Assembly: GCF_014280935.1 (NCBI RefSeq)
Contig: NZ_JACLZI010000036.1
Coordinates: forward strand, 248,001 to 312,000
Source: Aquibacillus kalidii
GTDB lineage: Bacteria > Bacillota > Bacilli > Bacillales > Amphibacillaceae
DNA length: 64,000 bases
Direction of reading: 5' to 3'
This document shows positions 27,290-37,023 of the stretch, piece by piece. The notes under the pieces were generated by a model. The model worked only from the letters and a program-made list of their open reading frames with translations, was not told the origin of the DNA and made no database searches. Position 1 is the stretch's first letter. Each line of letters begins with the position of its first letter. The translations under genes and the position numbers were made by a program.

Positions 27290-28069
27290 TTAGTTAGACT
27301 TAAGCTTTTGTAGTTCTACTAAAAATTTATTGTTTAATACTTTAATGTAAGTACCTTTCATCCCTAAGGAACGGGACTCAATTACACCAGCACTTTCCAA
27401 CTTCCTTAATGCGTTAACAATCACTGACCGCGTGATACCGACTCTATCTGCTATCTTACTTGCCACAAGTAGTCCTTCATTACCTTCTAACTCATCAAAA
27501 ATATGTTCTATTGCTTCAAGTTCACTATAGGATAAAGAGCTAATAGCCATTTGAACAACAGCCTTACTTCTAGCCTCCATCTCGATTTCTTCCGTTTTCT
27601 CATGAAGAATTTCCATTCCGACAACTGTTGCACCATATTCCGCTAATAATAAATCATCGTTATTAAAGCTTGCAGTCAATCGACTCAATATCAACGTACC
27701 TAAGCGTTCTCCTCCGCCTATAATAGGAACAATTGTCGTTAGACCATTTTTGAACAATTCTCTGTTTTCAACCGGAAATGCAGTGTACTCACTATCAATA
27801 TCAATGTTTGATGTAGTTTCCTGGATGTTAAATAAACTATCCGTGTATTCTTCTGGAAACTGTCTTTGTTCAAGCATTGATTTCATTCGTTCGTTTTCAA
27901 TCTGTTGATTAATAGCAAACCCCAACAGTTTTCCTCTACGACTAACAACAAAAATATTGGCTGTAATGATATCCCTTAATGTCGCAGCCATGTCATTAAA
28001 ATTCACCGTTTTTCCTGTTACCTTTTGTAGCATCGAGTTAATTTTTCTTGCGCGATCTAATAATTCCAT
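27290..28069 (-). CDS. codY: GTP- and isoleucine/valine/leucine-responsive global repressor CodY
   Basis: Controls nutrient-limitation genes by sensing branched-chain amino acids and GTP. The 259-residue protein has the N-terminal GAF ligand domain (about 1-155) and a C-terminal winged helix-turn-helix ([20 protein letters not shown]), both full length. It is the last gene of the xerC-hslV-hslU-codY cluster, next to fla/che, which CodY represses in B. subtilis. Confidence 0.97.
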
Positions 28070-28091: not shown

Positions 28092-29486
28092 TCACAAAAT
28101 ATATTGGCTTAAATCTTTGTTCTTTGCAATAGTGCTTAGTTTTTCATTCACATAACTTTCTGTAATTTCAATATGTCCCATTTGTATGTCTGATGCTTCA
28201 AATGATAGATCCTCTAATAACCTTTCAAGGATAGTATGCAATCTCCTTGCACCTATATTATCTGTATCCTGATTCACCTCAAAAGCTACTTCTGCAATTT
28301 TGGTAACAGCATCGTCGGTAAACGTTACTTTTATACCTTCCGTTCCCAATAACGCCTCATATTGTTTCAAAAGTGCATTAGATGGTTCAACAAGAATTTT
28401 CTTAAAATCGTCTACAGATAACTTATCAAATTCTACTCTAATCGGAAATCTCCCTTGTAACTCGGGGATTAAATCAGAAGGCTTTGCCATATGGAACGCA
28501 CCTGCTGCTACAAACAGAATATGATCTGTCTTTACCGGGCCATGCTTAGTGACGATTGTTGATCCTTCTACAATCGGTAAAATATCGCGTTGGACCCCTT
28601 CTCTGGAGACATTTGCTGATTGTTCACTTTTACCAGCTACTTTATCGATCTCATCAATAAATATGATTCCTGATTGCTCCACTTTATCCACAGCTTCTTG
28701 CGTAACCTCATCCATATCAATTAACTTATGAGCTTCCTGTTGAGTTAAGAGCTTTCTTGCTTCAGAAACAGGCAATTTACGTTTCTTTTTCTTTTTAGGC
28801 ATAAGTTGACCAAAAGCATCTTGCATGTTCATCCCCATTTGCTCCATACCAGATCCCTGCAGCATGTCAAACATAGACGGATTTTGTTCATCCACTTCTA
28901 TTGTTACAATCGTATCTTCTAATTCACCAAGAGCTAATTGGTGTTCTATCCGCTTTCTTTTCGTCTCAATTTCTTGATTATCTTCTGTTTGTTCCTGACC
29001 TTCATCATCAGTTTGTTGAGAAGAAAAAAGCATTTCAAAAGGGTTTTTCATGGCATTTTGCTTTTTGGCCTGCGGCACAATAATTTTGACTAAACGTTTA
29101 TTAGCATTTTCTTTTGCTTTATCCATAACACCTTTCATCTTTTCTTCTTTAACCATCCGAACGGCCATTTCAACTAGATCTCGCACCATTGATTCTACAT
29201 CCCGACCTACATAACCAACCTCGGTAAACTTTGTAGCTTCTACCTTCACAAAAGGTGCGCCTACTAACTTAGCTAAACGTCTAGCCACCTCAGTTTTACC
29301 GACACCCGTAGGACCGATCATTAAAATGTTCTTAGGTACAATCTCTTCACGCATTTTTTCTTCAAGTTGCATACGTCTATATCTGTTTCTAAGTGCTATA
29401 GCGACAGATTTCTTGGCGCTCACTTGACCAATAATGTATTTGTCTAACTGCTCAACTATTTGTTTCGGAGTCATATTCATAGACAT
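28092..29486 (-). CDS. hslU: ATP-dependent protease ATPase subunit HslU (ClpY/CodX)
   Basis: AAA+ unfoldase that feeds proteins into HslV. The 464-residue protein has Walker [10 protein letters not shown], Walker B IIFIDEID, the pore-loop region [16 protein letters not shown], sensor/arginine segment GRFPIRVEF and the C-terminal HslV-activating tail. The inserted I-domain (about 140-215) is charged and variable. It lies directly after hslV. Confidence 0.96.
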
Positions 29487-29508: not shown

Positions 29509-30054
29509 TTAATCGATTACCTCTAGTGTAATTTGATCATTTGTGAAAACACAAATTTCTCCCGCAATCTTCAGCGCAGCCTGCGCTATATCCTTAGCAG
29601 TTAAATCTTGCGCATAATTCTTAAGTGCTCTACCCGCACTTAATGCATAATTACCACCAGACCCAATTGCCAATATACCGTCGTCTGGTTCTATAACCTC
29701 TCCAGTTCCAGAAACAAGTAACATTTCATCTTTATTCATAACTATTAACATCGCTTCAAGCTTGCGAAGTACTCTATCACTTCTCCATTCTTTGGCTAAC
29801 TCAACTGCTGCACGAGAAAGATTGCCATCAAAAGATTCAAGTTTGCCCTCAAATTTTTCAAAAAGTGTAAAAGCATCTGCAACTGATCCTGCAAAACCTG
29901 CAAGCACCTGCCCTTTAAACAGTCTTCTTACTTTTTTTGCTGTATGTTTCATAACAACTGAATTCCCTAACGTTACCTGCCCATCACCACTCATGGCGCA
30001 TTGTCCATTGTGTTGAACAGCAAAAATGGTGGTTGCGTGAAATTCTTGATTCAC
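29509..30054 (-). CDS. hslV: ATP-dependent protease subunit HslV (ClpQ/CodW)
   Basis: Proteasome-like peptidase chamber activated by HslU. The 181-residue protein has the conserved [20 protein letters not shown] start region, GDGQVTLGN and the [14 protein letters not shown] block. GTG at 30054 is six bases after GAGGTG, giving Met-Asn-Gln-Glu before Phe-His-Ala-Thr-Thr. An upstream TTG start overlaps that site. It has no serine at position 2, where the B. subtilis homologue has its reported nucleophile. Confidence 0.94.
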
Positions 30055-30073
30055 ATTGTTCACCTCGTTCAAT

Positions 30074-30988
30074 TTATTCCCGTTTTTGTGCCCGGGGATG
30101 GCTATTCATATATATTTTACGCAAGTGATCCTTGGTTACATGAGTATAAATTTGAGTGGAAGACAAATGTTCATGCCCTAACAGCTCTTGAACTACTCTA
30201 AGATCCGCCCCCTCATTTAGCATATGCGTAGCAAAGGTATGTCTTAATTTATGTGGATGAAGCTTCACGGTTATCGCTGCATCCTTTACCATTTTGTCCA
30301 GAATTAACCGTACCCCTCTAGCCGATAACGGATTTCCTCTCGCATTTAGAAAAATAGCTTCATGATTAAATTTAGCTTTATTCAACAATATATTACGACC
30401 ATCTTGTATGTAAAGTTTCAATGCATTTTCTGAAAAGGATCCAAATGGAACGTACCTTTCTTTTCTCCCCTTTCCAGTAACGAGAGCAGTATTCATACTA
30501 AAATCAATATCATTCATTTTTAAACCAACACATTCACTAATCCGTATCCCTGTTGCGTATAACAACTCAAGTATCGCTTGATTTCTCTGTCCAATCGGCT
30601 CCGACTGATCACTAACTTGAAACAGTTTCTCTAATTCCTGTGTATAAAGAAAATCAGGAACTGGCTGCTCTGCTTTAGGTAAAGAAATATTTAGAAAAGG
30701 GTTACTATGTAAATAACCTTCTCTTTCCATAAACTTATAAAAGGTTCTGAGACTTGACAGTTTTCTTGATACACTTCTTCTAGATAGCTTTTTTTCATAT
30801 AAGGATGTTAGAAACAGTCTTACAACTTGGTAATCTATATCATCTATCTCCGTTATTCCCTCACCAAGAAGAAATTGAACGAAAGATTCTAGATCCTTCA
30901 TATAGTAGGTGATTGTGTAGGAAGATGCATTTTTCTCAATTTGTAAATATTCTAAAAACAATTGGTTTAGACGATCCACATTTTTCAT
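30074..30988 (-). CDS. xerC: Tyrosine recombinase XerC (CodV)
   Basis: Resolves chromosome dimers at dif together with XerD/RipX. The 304-residue protein has an N-terminal SAM-like domain and a catalytic domain with Arg in [42 protein letters not shown] (His/Trp-position His and the tyrosine nucleophile). ATG 30988 follows GGAGATG. It heads the unit with hslV-hslU-codY behind a consensus promoter. This is chromosomal XerC, not a phage integrase: the gene order is ancestral. Confidence 0.94.
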
Positions 30989-31094
30989 TTGTTCATCTCC
31001 AAAGCGTATCAATAGTAACACAAAAGACTTTCCTCATGCAATTAATTAACGAAATTGTAACAAAATTCTGAATCATGCTCTGCACAAGTACAAT

Positions 31095-31151
31095 TTACTG
31101 AGTTAAAGGTATCTTACTGAGTTAAAGGTATCTTTCTCACTTAAAAATATC
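31095..31151 (-). repeat. 19-bp tandem repeats in the xerC leader
   Basis: Two perfect copies of TTACTGAGTTAAAGGTATC (31095-31113 and 31114-31132, plus strand) plus a third at 14 of 19 positions (31133-31151). They lie downstream of the promoter, so they should be transcribed as part of the xerC-hslVU-codY leader. Confidence 0.8.
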
Positions 31152-31180
31152 TGTCAAGTAATATTACTTACCGAATGGAA

Positions 31181-31209
31181 ATTATAGCTTTAATATCCAC
31201 AATTGTCAA
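31181..31209 (-). promoter_or_regulatory. Sigma-A promoter of xerC-hslV-hslU-codY
   Basis: Perfect consensus on the minus strand: TTGACA at 31209-31204, a 17-base spacer, and TATAAT at 31186-31181. Predicted transcription start is near 31174, giving a leader of about 185 nt before xerC. Confidence 0.88.
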
Positions 31210-31440
31210 TATTTTTATATAACCACTTCATTAAGTCGTGATCTAATCGTTAAAACATTTAAATTAACTTAATTTTTAAAATAGTTTTCCCTAATTACAC
31301 TCGAAACAAACATAATAAGTAAGACCTTGAAATAGACTTGGTTACTATATTGTTTTTATGTCGTAATGTCCATAGACTCACCAGTAAAGTATGAAGACCT
31401 ACATTCCTTATAGAAGATGAATGCTAAACCAACACTGCTT

Positions 31441-31475
31441 AAAAAACGCTCGCTTTCCGCAGCTTAGTGTGGATC
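31441..31475. repeat. Decayed fragment resembling a Bacillaceae intergenic repeat
   Basis: AAAACGCTCGCTTTCCGC followed by diverged sequence. The CGCTCGCTTTCCGC core resembles one end of a GC-rich intergenic repeat I recall as common in Bacillus-related genomes. The other end and the palindromic core are absent here, so this looks like a remnant. Family membership is from memory. Confidence 0.4.
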
Positions 31476-31581
31476 ATTTACTCAATAAAGCATTTAAAAA
31501 TAGTATGACATCACTTAAAATGCAGAAAGCCTATCATAACAAGGTATGCAAAAGCGCCTAGAAATAAGAAAATGCACAAAA

Positions 31582-31606
31582 AAACCGTTAGAAAGACTAA
31601 CGGTTT
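31582..31606 (-). terminator. Intrinsic terminator after topA
   Basis: Perfect 10-bp stem AAACCGTTAG/CTAACGGTTT with a 5-base loop, followed by a run of Ts on the transcribed strand. The topA stop codon (31607-31605) overlaps the first bases of the stem. Confidence 0.87.
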
Positions 31607-33683
31607 AGGTTTGAGGTTCCTCTTTGTATTCGCATTCCGTACACTGAATCTGTGTACCCTTTTTAGACTTCTTCTCCACAAGTAAAGCGTTACATTTCGG
31701 ACAAGGTCTTGAAATAGGTTTATCCCATGAAATGAAATCACACTCTGGATAATTATCGCATCCATAGAAAGTTCGACGTTTTTTAGTTTTTCTTTCTACA
31801 ACGTTTCCTTCTTTACACTTTGGACAAGTTACCCCTATCTCTTTTAAAATAGGTTTTGTATTTCGACACTCTGGAAAATTGGAACATGCCAAGAATTTAC
31901 CATAACGACCCATTTTATATACCATTTCATTACCACAGTTTTCACAATCTATTCCTGCTGGTTCATCTTTTATTTCTACTTTTTCCATTTCCTTTTCAGC
32001 AATTTCTAATCTCTTATCAAAGCCTTGATAAAATCCATCAATGATATTTACCCATTCTGTATCGCCTTCTTCAACAGCATCTAAGTCCCCTTCCATCTTG
32101 ACTGTAAAATCAACATCGATAATTTCAGGGAAAAACTCTTCTATTAAATCTATTACAATTTGACCTAGTTCTGTTGGTACAAAACGTTTATTATCAAGTG
32201 TTACGTAGCCTCGTCGTTGAATAGTGTCCAATGTTGGGGCATATGTGGAAGGTCTACCAATCCCTTGTTCTTCCATTGTCTTAACTAAACGCGCTTCTGT
32301 ATATCTTGGAGGTGGTTGTGTAAAGTGTTGATTAGGTTCAATCTCTTTTGTTTCGATAACCATACCCTCTTCAAGATCAGGTAATAATTTATCTTCTTCT
32401 TTTTTGTTATCATCTGTACCTTCTATATAGATTTTCATAAAACCTTTAAATTTAATTTTTGAGCCAGATGCTCTAAACTCTACCCCCTCATTAAGAAGGT
32501 GAACCGTCATCGTATCCATAATTGCTGGAGCCATTTGGCTAGCAATAAATCGGTCCCAGATCAACTTATATAATCTAAATTGGTCTCTTGATAGAATACT
32601 TTTCAATGATTTAGGATCTCGATTAGGATACGTTGGTCTTATCGCTTCATGGGCATCTTGAGCGCCTTCGACTTTTTTACCTTGTTGGTATGAGCCTAAA
32701 AATTCTGTACCAAATTGATCAGTGATATATTCAGCGGCCTGTTTTTTGGCTGTGTCAGAAACTCTTGTGGAATCTGTACGCATATAGGTGATTAAACCTG
32801 TAATACCACCCTCGGCTTTCCCTAAGTCTATTCCTTCATATAATTGTTGTGCTACCATCATCGTTTTTCTCGCACGGAAATTAAGTTTCCTTGCTGCCTC
32901 TTGTTGTAGAGAAGAAGTGGTAAAAGGGGCTGAAGGATTACGTTTTCTTTCACGTTTTTTCACTTTATCAACAGTAAAATTAGACCCTTTCATTTGATCT
33001 AGTATTTTATCTACATCTTCTCGGTTATGGAGATCTGTCTTTTTTCCATCTAAACCATAAAAACTACCGTCAAAATTTTCTTTCCCTTTTAGAAATGACG
33101 CCTCTATCGACCAATACTCTTCTGGTATAAACTTTTCAATTTCGCGCTCTCGATCCATAATCATTTTAACTGCAACAGATTGCACGCGTCCGGCACTTAA
33201 TCCTTTTTTTACTTTCTTCCATAATAAAGGACTAATATTATAACCTACTAATCTGTCTAAAATTCTTCTAGCTTGCTGTGCATCTACTAAATCCATATTA
33301 ATGGTCCTTGGATGTTTAAACGATTCTTTGATCGCATCCTTGGTTATCTCGTTAAATACAACTCTGCACTCAGATTTGTCATCTATATCTAAGCTATGTG
33401 CTAAATGCCAAGCAATTGCTTCCCCTTCGCGATCCGGGTCAGCTGCGAGGAAAACTTTTTTAACTTTTTTAGCAGCAGTTTTTAATTCTTTTAACACGGG
33501 GCCTTTTCCGCGGATAGTAATATACTTCGGTTCATAATTTTCTTCTACATTTACACCCATCTGACTTTTAGGTAAATCACGTATATGTCCCATGGATGCC
33601 TTTACTTTATATTTTTTCCCTAAATATCTCTCAATCGTTTTTGCTTTTGCAGGAGATTCCACAATTACCAGATAATCTGCCAT
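31605..33683 (-). CDS. topA: DNA topoisomerase I
   Basis: Relaxes negative supercoils by single-strand passage. The 692-residue protein has the N-terminal TOPRIM domain ([29 protein letters not shown]), the active-site tyrosine in [14 protein letters not shown], and three C-terminal Cys4 zinc ribbons ([30 protein letters not shown]). ATG 33683 follows GGGAGGAAAAGAGAC. The upstream in-frame extension has no ribosome-binding site. It has its own promoter and terminator. Confidence 0.97.
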
Positions 33684-33815
33684 GTCTCTTTTCCTCCCAA
33701 GAGGTTTTTCTATTTTCATTTATTTTATCTACTTATGTTATATATTATTACTATACACAGGCTTCCGTACTGTGTTCTTTTTAAATAAGTTATTCCTTGA
33801 ATATAAATCTTCCCT

Positions 33816-33877: not shown

Positions 33878-34795
33878 TTATTTTTCCGTCAATTCTGACA
33901 AAAACCGACTCCATTTTAACTTTTGATTCTCCCAATCCTCTACTAAATCATAGGCACTTTGTACTAATTTAGCGCCATCTTGTATCAGTTTATGACAGCC
34001 TTTTGTCTGTTTTTGAAGTGGTGATCCTGGTATTGCATACACTTCACGTCCCTGATCTAAAGCTTGATCAACCGTTATGAGGGATCCACTTTTTTCTTGT
34101 GCTTCTACCACGAGTGTTCCGTAACTTAATCCGCTTATAATTCGGTTCCTTTCGGGAAAATGATATCTCTTTGGAGGGGTGCTTGGAGGATATTCCGATA
34201 CAATTAATTGTGTTGTAGCTAGTTGAAAAAATAAGTTTTCATGGTGTCTTGGATAGATATAGGAAAAGCCACTTCCTAAAACGGCAATCGTTCTTCCATT
34301 ATTCTCGATAGCAAGTTGATGGGCTATCCCATCAATTCCACTTGCCATACCACTGACAATTGTCCATCCCATTTTTATAAGAGGTACGATAATAGGGGCC
34401 ATTTTCTGTCTTGCTTCGAAAGTTGGATTTCTCGTTCCGACTATACTTAATGCTGGCATCTGAAGAAAAAGTTTGGAGTTTCCATATAAATACAAAACAT
34501 ACGGTGGGTCATTAATAGTCCTAAGCGCTAGAGGATAGTCTGAATCAAAAACGGTAGTAATATGGTAGAGCTCTCGATCATTTTTAATAGACTCAATTAT
34601 AGTAGAATCATGTAGGTCAGAAAATAGTTGGTTGGCTCTCTGAGAAGGCAGAGAAAAATAATTCACAAAATCATGAGGCTTGAATCGGTAAAGGTTTTCT
34701 AGTTCAGTATCTAAAGCAATGATCTTTCTTAGGAGAGGTCTTGTCATCACAGATGACCTATGAAGATGAACGAGTCTCCATTTTTTCTTAGTCAA
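33878..34795 (-). CDS. dprA: DNA-processing protein DprA (Smf)
   Basis: Binds incoming single-stranded DNA during transformation and loads RecA. About 305 residues with the Rossmann-like core: SIVGTRNPTFEARQ, VSGMASGIDGIAHQLAIENN, VLGSGFSYIYPRHHENLF and SEYPPSTPPKRYHFPERNRI. The start is uncertain: GAAAGGA abuts ATG 34804 but lies nine bases before TTG 34795, which I use. It lies between sucD and topA, as in B. subtilis. Confidence 0.92.
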   Translation of the reverse strand: MTKKKWRLVHLHRSSVMTRPLLRKIIALDTELENLYRFKPHDFVNYFSLPSQRANQLFSDLHDSTIIESIKNDRELYHITTVFDSDYPLALRTINDPPYVLYLYGNSKLFLQMPALSIVGTRNPTFEARQKMAPIIVPLIKMGWTIVSGMASGIDGIAHQLAIENNGRTIAVLGSGFSYIYPRHHENLFFQLATTQLIVSEYPPSTPPKRYHFPERNRIISGLSYGTLVVEAQEKSGSLITVDQALDQGREVYAIPGSPLQKQTKGCHKLIQDGAKLVQSAYDLVEDWENQKLKWSRFLSELTEK

Positions 34796-34829
34796 ACGCA
34801 ACATTCCTTTCTCGTCAATGTAAAAAATA

Positions 34830-34868: not shown

Positions 34869-35771
34869 TTAATGTGTTTTACACTTATCGTACAAGCCTT
34901 TTTCTTTTAAAACACCAATTAATGTTTCGCCCATAACAGAAGGTGTGTCTGCCACTGCAATTCCGCAGCTGTTCATAACTTTGATCTTTTCCTCTGCAGT
35001 ACCTTTTCCACCAGAAATGATCGCACCAGCATGCCCCATTCTTTTTCCAGGTGGAGCCGTGCGTCCTCCAATAAAGCCTACAACCGGTTTAGTCATATTG
35101 GCTTTCACCCATTCAGCCGCTTCTTCCTCAGCTGTTCCACCAATCTCACCGATCATCATTACAGCTTCAGTTTCTGGATCTTCATTAAATGCTTTTAAGC
35201 AATCAATAAAGTCAGTACCATTTACTGGGTCTCCACCGATTCCAACTGCGGTTGACTGTCCAAAACCTTGTTCAGATAGCTGATGAACTGCTTCATACGT
35301 CAAAGTACCACTACGAGATACAACACCGATATGTCCCTTCTTATGAATGTATCCAGGCATAATACCAATTTTACATTCTTCCGGTGTTATGACACCAGGG
35401 CAGTTAGGTCCTACTAATCTTGTTTTCTTGCCTTCCATGTATCTTTTCACTTTAAGCATATCCATAACAGGAATGTGTTCCGTTATACAAATAACTAAAT
35501 CTAACTCTGCATCCACTGCCTCAATAATCGCATCTGCAGCAAATGGCGCAGGAACGTAAATAACAGATGCATTAGCACCAGTTTCATTTACTGCGTCAAT
35601 GACAGTATTAAATACAGGCACTCCTTCAACTTCTGTTCCGCCCTTTTTAGGCGTTACTCCGCCAACAATCTTAGTGCCGTACTCTAACATTTGCTTTGTA
35701 TGGAAGAGAGCAGTTGATCCCGTAATACCTTGAACGATTACTTTTGTATCCTTATTTATAAAAACACTCAT
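34869..35771 (-). CDS. sucD: Succinyl-CoA synthetase alpha subunit
   Basis: With SucC converts succinyl-CoA plus NDP and phosphate to succinate plus NTP in the citric acid cycle. The 300-residue protein has the CoA-binding Rossmann domain ([17 protein letters not shown]), GPNCPGVI, and the phosphohistidine in [17 protein letters not shown]. It follows sucC after a 56-base gap that contains a small hairpin (35805-35827). Confidence 0.97.
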
Positions 35772-35827: not shown

Positions 35828-36988
35828 CTATTGAACTAGTGATACGATTTTTTCAGCACCATCAGCCATAGATTCAGCTGTAGTTATGTTTAAACCAGAT
35901 TCAGCTAGAATTTGCTTCCCTAAGTCAACGTTTGTTCCCTCCAAACGAACAACTAAAGGAATTTCTAATCCAATCTGTTTCGTTGCTTCAACAATCCCTT
36001 CCGCTATTACATCGCATTTCATAATACCACCAAAAATATTAACAAAAATACCCTTTACGTTATCATCTGATAAGATTATTTTAAATGCTTCTGTTACTTT
36101 TTCAGCAGTTGCACCGCCACCTACATCGAGGAAATTTGCAGGATCACCACTATAATGTTTGATAATATCCATTGTAGCCATAGCAAGTCCCGCACCGTTA
36201 ACCATACAACCAATATTTCCTTCTAATGCGATATAGCTTAAGTCATGTTTAGAAGCTTCGATTTCTTTCGTATCCTCTTCATCCAAATCACGGTATGCCG
36301 CAATATCTTTATGACGGAACAAAGCATTGTCATCAAAGTTTAATTTGGCATCTAAAGCTAATACATCTCCACTTCCTGTTGTTACTAATGGATTAATTTC
36401 AGCGATCGAACAATCTTTATCTACAAAAACTTGGTATAATCCCATCATAAATTTCACTGCTTTTGACAAATATTCTTGTGGAATATTGATATTAAAAGCA
36501 AGTCGTCGTGCCTGATATGGTAATAATCCAGTAACTGGATCTATCACTTCTTTAAAAATCTTTTCTGGTGTTTCTGAGGCTACTTCCTCTATTTCTGTAC
36601 CGCCTTCTTCAGAAGCCATCATCGTAACTCGGGAAGTTGCGCGATCTAATACTAGACCCACGTAATATTCCTTTTGAATATCGCAACCCTCTTCAATTAG
36701 TAAACGCTTAACTTCTTTACCTTGTGGACCTGTTTGATGTGTAACCAATGTTTTACCAAGAATTTCGTTTGCATATGTACGCACTTCATCAAGGTTTTTA
36801 GCTACCTTTACACCACCAGCTTTACCCCTACCACCAGCATGAATTTGCGCCTTTACTACAGATACACTACTGCCCAATTCTGTAGCTGCTTCCACAGCTT
36901 CATCTACTGAATAAGCAACTTTGCCATTTGGTACAGCAACACCGTATTTTCGCAAAATCTCTTTGCCTTGATACTCGTGAATGTTCAT
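35828..36988 (-). CDS. sucC: ADP-forming succinyl-CoA synthetase beta subunit
   Basis: Nucleotide-binding subunit with an ATP-grasp fold. The 386-residue protein starts [17 protein letters not shown] and has [16 protein letters not shown], the [15 protein letters not shown] segment, and the power-helix region [16 protein letters not shown] 36988 follows GGGAGGATGG. The longer reading adds residues encoded by the ribosome-binding site. A promoter lies just upstream. Confidence 0.97.
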
Positions 36989-37023
36989 GTTCCATCCTCC
37001 CATCAAATAATCACTGCAAATTC

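Follow-up and report, generated by a model that had tools for sequence, protein, structure and literature searches.

The gene trmFO has been truly lost from Aquibacillus kalidii, not relocated within its genome, and this loss is old: it is family-wide, recurs across the order and is no recent local replacement in a single species. Its product makes m5U54, one of the most widely distributed modifications of tRNA; on the initial annotation, loss of the gene would leave this modification either absent or made by another enzyme. Among the relatives both outcomes look possible: many Bacilli that lack TrmFO have a candidate replacement for it, a group of COG2265 proteins here called class III, and 109 of the 159 genomes of the family, that of A. 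kalidii included, carry neither TrmFO nor class III. It is fairly probable that class III is a RumA-type tRNA m5U54 methyltransferase which has repeatedly displaced TrmFO, and that the lineages with neither enzyme have unmethylated U54; this function is attributed to class III because of its mutual exclusivity with TrmFO. What is new is a clade of predicted tRNA U54 methyltransferases, found in other Bacilli, together with a group of lineages, A. kalidii included, that have neither enzyme.

The window, that is, the whole analysed stretch of 64,000 nucleotides, carries on its minus strand the gene order sucC-sucD-dprA-topA-[gap]-xerC-hslV-hslU-codY (Table 1), each of the eight proteins scoring over the NCBIfam cut-off for its own name. 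In B. subtilis the slot between topA and xerC is the home of trmFO. Here, as initially annotated, that gene is missing from the interval and the other genes of the operon stand in the expected order; the replacing non-coding DNA, put at about 600 bp, measures 616 bp and holds no convincing gene. The longest ATG-started frame in the slot encodes 46 aa, a TTG frame of 52 aa runs antisense to the start of xerC, and one of 84 aa (31511-31765, minus strand) overlaps topA out of frame; the mechanical ORF of xerC begins at a GTG at 31021, and its ATG start is at 30988. A search for a trmFO pseudogene remnant by tblastn with the TrmFO of locus L006 against 31022-31604 gave a best E of 11, and a search of 30900-31700 for structured RNAs in Rfam gave nothing at E values up to 1. 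No tRNA genes were found in the window.

Table 1. Features of the window around the empty trmFO slot.
Feature	Position	Strand	Basis or remark
sucC	35828-37006	-	NCBIfam
sucD	34869-35771	-	NCBIfam
dprA, upstream of topA	33878-34804	-	TIGR00732
topA, DNA topoisomerase I	31605-33719	-	TIGR01051, 863 bits
topA intrinsic terminator, overlapping the stop codon	31582-31606	-	10-pair stem followed by a T run
Empty trmFO slot, topA stop to xerC start	30989-31604	.	no convincing gene, no TrmFO remnant
Candidate sigma-70-like promoter TTGACA-17-TATAAT facing xerC	31181-31209	-	consensus match only
Core of the conserved block upstream of xerC	31046-31068	-	kept in named relatives
xerC, tyrosine recombinase, ATG after GGAGATGA	30074-30988	-	TIGR02224, 362 bits; start read from sequence
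hslV	29509-30072	-	TIGR03692
hslU	28092-29486	-	TIGR00390
codY	27290-28069	-	TIGR02787, 406 bits

The new promoter initially placed in the slot is retained as a candidate only, with a 12/12 consensus match facing xerC; the scan returned four promoter-like sites against 2.9 expected, so that only the perfect score of this one is notable. For the topA terminator one site was found against 0.2 expected. A block upstream of xerC, alignable over ~37-95 bp with named relatives, has one exact site of its core in the window and none in shuffles. It reads GAATTTTGTTACAATTT...GTTAA, is common to several named relatives and, by eye, abuts a second candidate promoter adjoining xerC; it is perhaps a promoter plus regulator site for the xerC-hslVU-codY operon. 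The slot is best regarded as the scar of an old, family-wide trmFO loss, topA ending in its own terminator and xerC-hslVU-codY having a candidate promoter of its own.

Relocation of trmFO, the one finding that would have reduced the gap to a rearrangement, is ruled out by a genome-wide search. The assembly (66 contigs, 100% complete, 1.49% contamination) was searched with TIGR00137 in six frames, with stops read through, and the only match, a weak one of 65.7 bits (cut-off 428.65), is MnmG, which scores 946 bits on TIGR00136 (cut-off 524.85); seven of the 14 control genomes have TrmFO over the cut-off in the same TIGR00137 search. Within the family TrmFO is over the cut-off in 2 of 159 genomes, the best ten candidates per genome being scored, and in 273 of 397 genomes drawn from the order, with the best four candidates scored, the losses being scattered over many families. 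The two bearers of the family, G135 and G136 (L006 and L007), belong to one genus and have the gene in the topA-xerC slot, either by retention or by regain. A search with XerC gave 14 loci, the nearest nine of which come from Virgibacillus (four), Oceanobacillus (four) and Terrihalobacillus (one), genera that, judging from XerC identity, would belong to the same family. In the eight named relatives in which the slot is covered the topA-xerC gap is 460-1335 bp long, and their loci contain no TrmFO match. It is also worth recording that some Virgibacillus and Oceanobacillus loci (L027, L031, L032) have between topA and xerC an ORF of 104-129 aa, similar by eye, with no counterpart in the window; that in Virgibacillus senegalensis (L026, 294-3696) topA is matched by two overlapping pieces, residues 12-589 followed by 140-704, which looks like a partial tandem duplication; and that Fructilactobacillus florum (L034) has a topA-xerC spacing of ~80 bp with no trmFO between, an apparent absence outside the family.

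The genome of A. kalidii was likewise searched for COG2265/TrmA-type proteins. It has one full-length protein (C45:4539-5825), the other three matches being partial, with frames of 194-205 aa, and profile searching found no class III. The full-length gene adjoins, as read by eye, a dgkB-like gene, the order dgkB-yefA being that of B. subtilis. Its product scores 403 bits to S. pneumoniae RlmCD (5xj1), where one YfjO-type protein has 289, one class IV protein 281 and class III proteins 207-223, and is nested with 5xj1 in the RlmCD clade (SH 0.967); it is the RlmCD orthologue. Position 54, read directly from the sequences, is still encoded as U: TTCGA occurs in all four tRNA genes found in the 1.35 Mb of the genome covered, a stretch containing few such genes. 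A selenocysteine tRNA gene is predicted at C34:16772-16868 (L252). The tRNAs of A. kalidii most likely carry an unmethylated U54.

This would not hold if around A. kalidii RlmCD had become tri-specific, methylating tRNA U54 in addition to U747 and U1939 and making TrmFO and class III dispensable, the strongest competing explanation but one that we regard as rather unlikely; the fuller version, in which an RlmCD widened to tRNA U54 makes all the m5U of the cell and hence allows TrmFO, class III and YfjO to be dropped, appears distinctly improbable. RlmCD is the sole full COG2265 enzyme left in the genome and is, as PMC7226160 states, already dual-specific; moreover, the order genomes with neither TrmFO nor class III, 55 of 397 (16 in family f7, 12 in f1, nine each in f36 and f2, five in f35, two each in f14 and f21, one of the f14 pair having a partial TrmFO match), are concentrated in f1, f2, f7 and f36, with 46 of them, and the sampled RlmCDs of these four families cluster in one part of the tree. 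However, of the residues that set rRNA specificity in S. pneumoniae RlmCD according to PMC6235398 (F145, Q162 and N249), the first and last are unchanged in the A. kalidii protein (F, T, N) and in the sampled RlmCDs of that clade. F145 and N249 are indeed kept in all 24 RlmCDs besides 5xj1, whereas position 162 is Q or T in other RlmCDs, and the T of A. kalidii recurs in three of the 13 proteins sampled from outside that clade. Nor does any RlmCD column of the family track class III (top value 0.736 versus a shuffle 95% level of 0.784, compared over 33 of the 43 family genomes, of which 9 have class III and 24 do not). An unmethylated U54 is the simplest reading.

At least one COG2265 protein over the TIGR00479 cut-off is present in all 397 order genomes, and at least three copies in 59 of 124 TrmFO-less versus 19 of 273 TrmFO-bearing ones. 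In 43 plus 54 hand-picked genomes bit scores split these copies into RlmCD-type and YfjO-type proteins (the latter label being our assumption), class III (311-365), class IV (405-458) and class V (383-388). Class III proteins are ~460 aa long and have, invariant in 31 of 31, the motifs DPPRSG and SCNP, a Cys that we take to be catalytic, a C-terminal Glu, presumably the general base, and four presumed FeS-type Cys; with 84.4 bits on the Pfam model tRNA_U5-meth_tr (PF05958) they fit the COG2265 m5U methyltransferases. Scores of 342.5 and 355.9 bits on TIGR00479 (cut-off 183.55) give them the NCBIfam name RlmD, but RlmCD, the YfjO-type proteins and classes IV and V pass this model as well, and therefore it does not resolve function; on the stricter NF009639 (RlmD) class III stays below the cut-off, with 242 and 255 of 458 bits, and on trmA_only (TIGR02143) it has 86.4 and 98.8 bits (cut-off 334.65). 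The name RlmD is probably a misnomer.

In FastTree trees with SH support the 17 class III proteins sampled all fall in one clade (SH 1.0), which has a long stem. Because 8 of the 12 class III proteins from outside the order are divergent (434-645 bits), all 12 were placed in the tree, and the enlarged group still forms one clade (29 of 29, SH 0.987), some inner nodes being weaker (0.40, 0.74). The RlmCD clade is separate, with 25 members at SH 0.967 and, with ten more, 35 members at SH 0.966. Class III did not group with P. abyssi TrmU54; its neighbour in the tree is E. coli RlmD, with support of 0.70. In class III RlmCD position 145 is L or M, position 162 is mostly A and position 249 is D, the last in 29 of 29; A at position 162 is shared with E. 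coli TrmA and D at 249 with P. abyssi TrmU54, while the loss of F145 is not special, since YfjO-type proteins and E. coli RlmC likewise have L there. These residues are no more than suggestive. Identity between families is higher for class III than for RlmCD in 106 of 116 pairs from 16 genomes (means 75.7% vs 67.6%; in one pair 83.9% vs 61.7%), which fits either horizontal spread or slower evolution. No fixed neighbourhood was found, no neighbour within about 2 kb being common to more than 5 of 42 loci, and class III does not occupy the trmFO slot, as topA or xerC lies beside it in 0 of 42 loci. Plasmid and phage records gave 12 and 44 matches, respectively, all below 60% identity and so probably other COG2265 members.

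Classes IV and V are not favoured as TrmFO substitutes because their distribution is patchy; class IV, for instance, is present in G350 but not in G164 of the same genus (g52). Class IV frames of ~490-545 aa were seen in G015, G030, G123, G193, G339, G350 and others (L199-L208, L213), and class V frames of ~390-404 aa in G006, G008, G040 and G126 (L209-L212). A COG2265 fragment with two in-frame stops directly follows a full-length COG2265 gene at G171:C38:114955-115389.

The function predicted for class III comes from its distribution. With a profile of 31 proteins (A1) and a threshold of E <= 1e-150, class III was found in 84 of the 397 order genomes: 69 of the 124 TrmFO-less but only 15 of the 273 TrmFO-bearing ones (odds ratio 21.6; Fisher 2.8e-28, ignoring phylogeny). 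Within the 12 families of mixed TrmFO status the figures are 54 of 70 without TrmFO vs 10 of 103 with it, a difference equalled in 0 of 100000 within-family permutations. A strict one-for-one swap is seen within six genera of the order (g48, g54, g101, g104, g153 and g155) and in one outside it (g239, G701 against G652). Genus g72, with class III in 15 of 15 genomes and TrmFO in 9 of 15, has the pattern expected if the gain of class III precedes the loss of TrmFO; in genus g36 of the A. kalidii family the counts are 10 of 10 and 2 of 10. The 15 order genomes with both enzymes comprise nine of g72, two of family f4 and one each of f10, f19, f29 and f30. Two mixed genera show no swap: g59, in which G498 (family f14) lacks class III and gives no more than a partial match to TrmFO (E 1.8e-37), perhaps a decaying gene or one at a contig edge, and g186, in which G616 (420 contigs) has neither enzyme. 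In a class-wide draw of 190 genomes, with thresholds of E <= 1e-120 for A1 and E <= 1e-60 for TrmFO and the same genomes among those listed for both searches, all 14 carriers of class III were without TrmFO. Counted by hand over the 175 genomes outside the order, class III is present in 12 of 15 without TrmFO and in 0 of 160 with it. The link is incomplete, neither enzyme being present in 55 of the 124 TrmFO-less order genomes and in 3 of the 15 outside the order.

It could be objected that class III methylates rRNA or some other RNA and is linked with TrmFO loss only indirectly, through shared habitat or lineage, as its NCBIfam name and the 17 genomes that keep both genes might suggest. We consider this unlikely: the mutual exclusion is repeated in seven genera and beyond the order, class III does not keep N249 of RlmCD, and RlmCD itself is retained alongside, as checked in the 20 class III genomes with RlmCD in the tree. 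Class III as a tRNA U54 methyltransferase is the preferred reading of this distribution. By this scheme the SAM-dependent class III would have displaced the folate/FAD-dependent TrmFO many times, probably often after horizontal transfer, and sometimes through an overlap phase with both genes, of which g72 may be an example. In the family of A. kalidii class III is present in 50 of 159 genomes, and both TrmFO bearers also carry it, hence the 109 with neither. About two thirds of the family, A. kalidii included, would thus have neither enzyme left and most likely an unmethylated U54, m5U747 and m5U1939 of 23S rRNA presumably still being made by RlmCD.

An unrelated third enzyme could instead make m5U54 in these lineages: two unrelated families already do the job, so that another is conceivable, and the repeated gain of class III suggests that the modification is usually worth keeping; but no candidate appeared in the searches for TrmFO, COG2265 and class III, and we hold this to be very unlikely. 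That trmFO is present in A. kalidii but was missed through an assembly gap, relocation or a frameshift has a negligible probability, since, although a gap in 66 contigs could in principle hide a gene, the six-frame search reading through stops found none, the slot itself is an uninterrupted, empty stretch in A. kalidii as in the eight named relatives with the slot covered, and TrmFO is also lacking from 156 of the other 158 family genomes, several of them single-contig, which argues against a gene hidden in a gap.

If the displacement of TrmFO by class III holds, a clade named as an rRNA enzyme, RlmD, would in many Bacilli be the enzyme for tRNA T54, and whole groups with ordinary genome sizes, the family of A. 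kalidii among them, would live without ribothymidine in their tRNA; the lineages with neither enzyme would then be natural experiments on the purpose of the modification. The idea of displacement can be put to a direct test in the seven genera that show one-for-one swaps.

In the open-access literature, as far as its accessible text goes, no report was found of a COG2265 clade displacing TrmFO in Bacilli. Statements in a T-loop review assign U54 methylation in Firmicutes to TrmFO (PMC7912444), and a B. subtilis survey gives TrmFO as the replacement there of E. coli TrmA (PMC7408541). A review covering 33 Bacilli (PMC5954106) counts TrmFO in 23 of them and the TrmA family in all 33, with all COG2265 proteins lumped together, so it was already known that not all Bacilli have TrmFO; the same source describes TrmA and TrmFO as dispensable under optimal growth.

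TrmFO, or Gid (COG1206), the folate/FAD-dependent tRNA m5U54 methyltransferase expected in the slot and found in it in G135 and G136, is absent from the A. kalidii genome, whose full COG2265 enzyme is orthologous to RlmCD (YefA), with U747 and U1939 of 23S rRNA, not tRNA, as its known targets. The structure 2jjq (PYRAB10780), which we take to be TrmU54 of Pyrococcus abyssi, scores 185-198 bits to class III and shares with it the D at the RlmCD-249 position, but its scores to RlmCD (200 bits) and to a YfjO-type protein (213 bits) are at least as high. E. coli TrmA belongs to the same superfamily, and class III is predicted to share its reaction, but reaches only 86-99 bits on trmA_only (cut-off 334.65); RlmC and TrmA are stated in PMC6235398 to be restricted to Proteobacteria. 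A precedent for a RumA-type enzyme acting on tRNA U54 is TrmU54 of P. abyssi, as cited in PMC7912444. A comparable reshuffling of m5U enzymes in Firmicutes-derived bacteria is that of RlmFO of Mycoplasma capricolum, in which, according to PMC4081110 and PMC7226160, the enzyme acting on rRNA changed from a SAM-dependent to a folate-dependent one; its direction is opposite to the one proposed here, in which a SAM-dependent enzyme would have taken the place of a folate-dependent one on tRNA.
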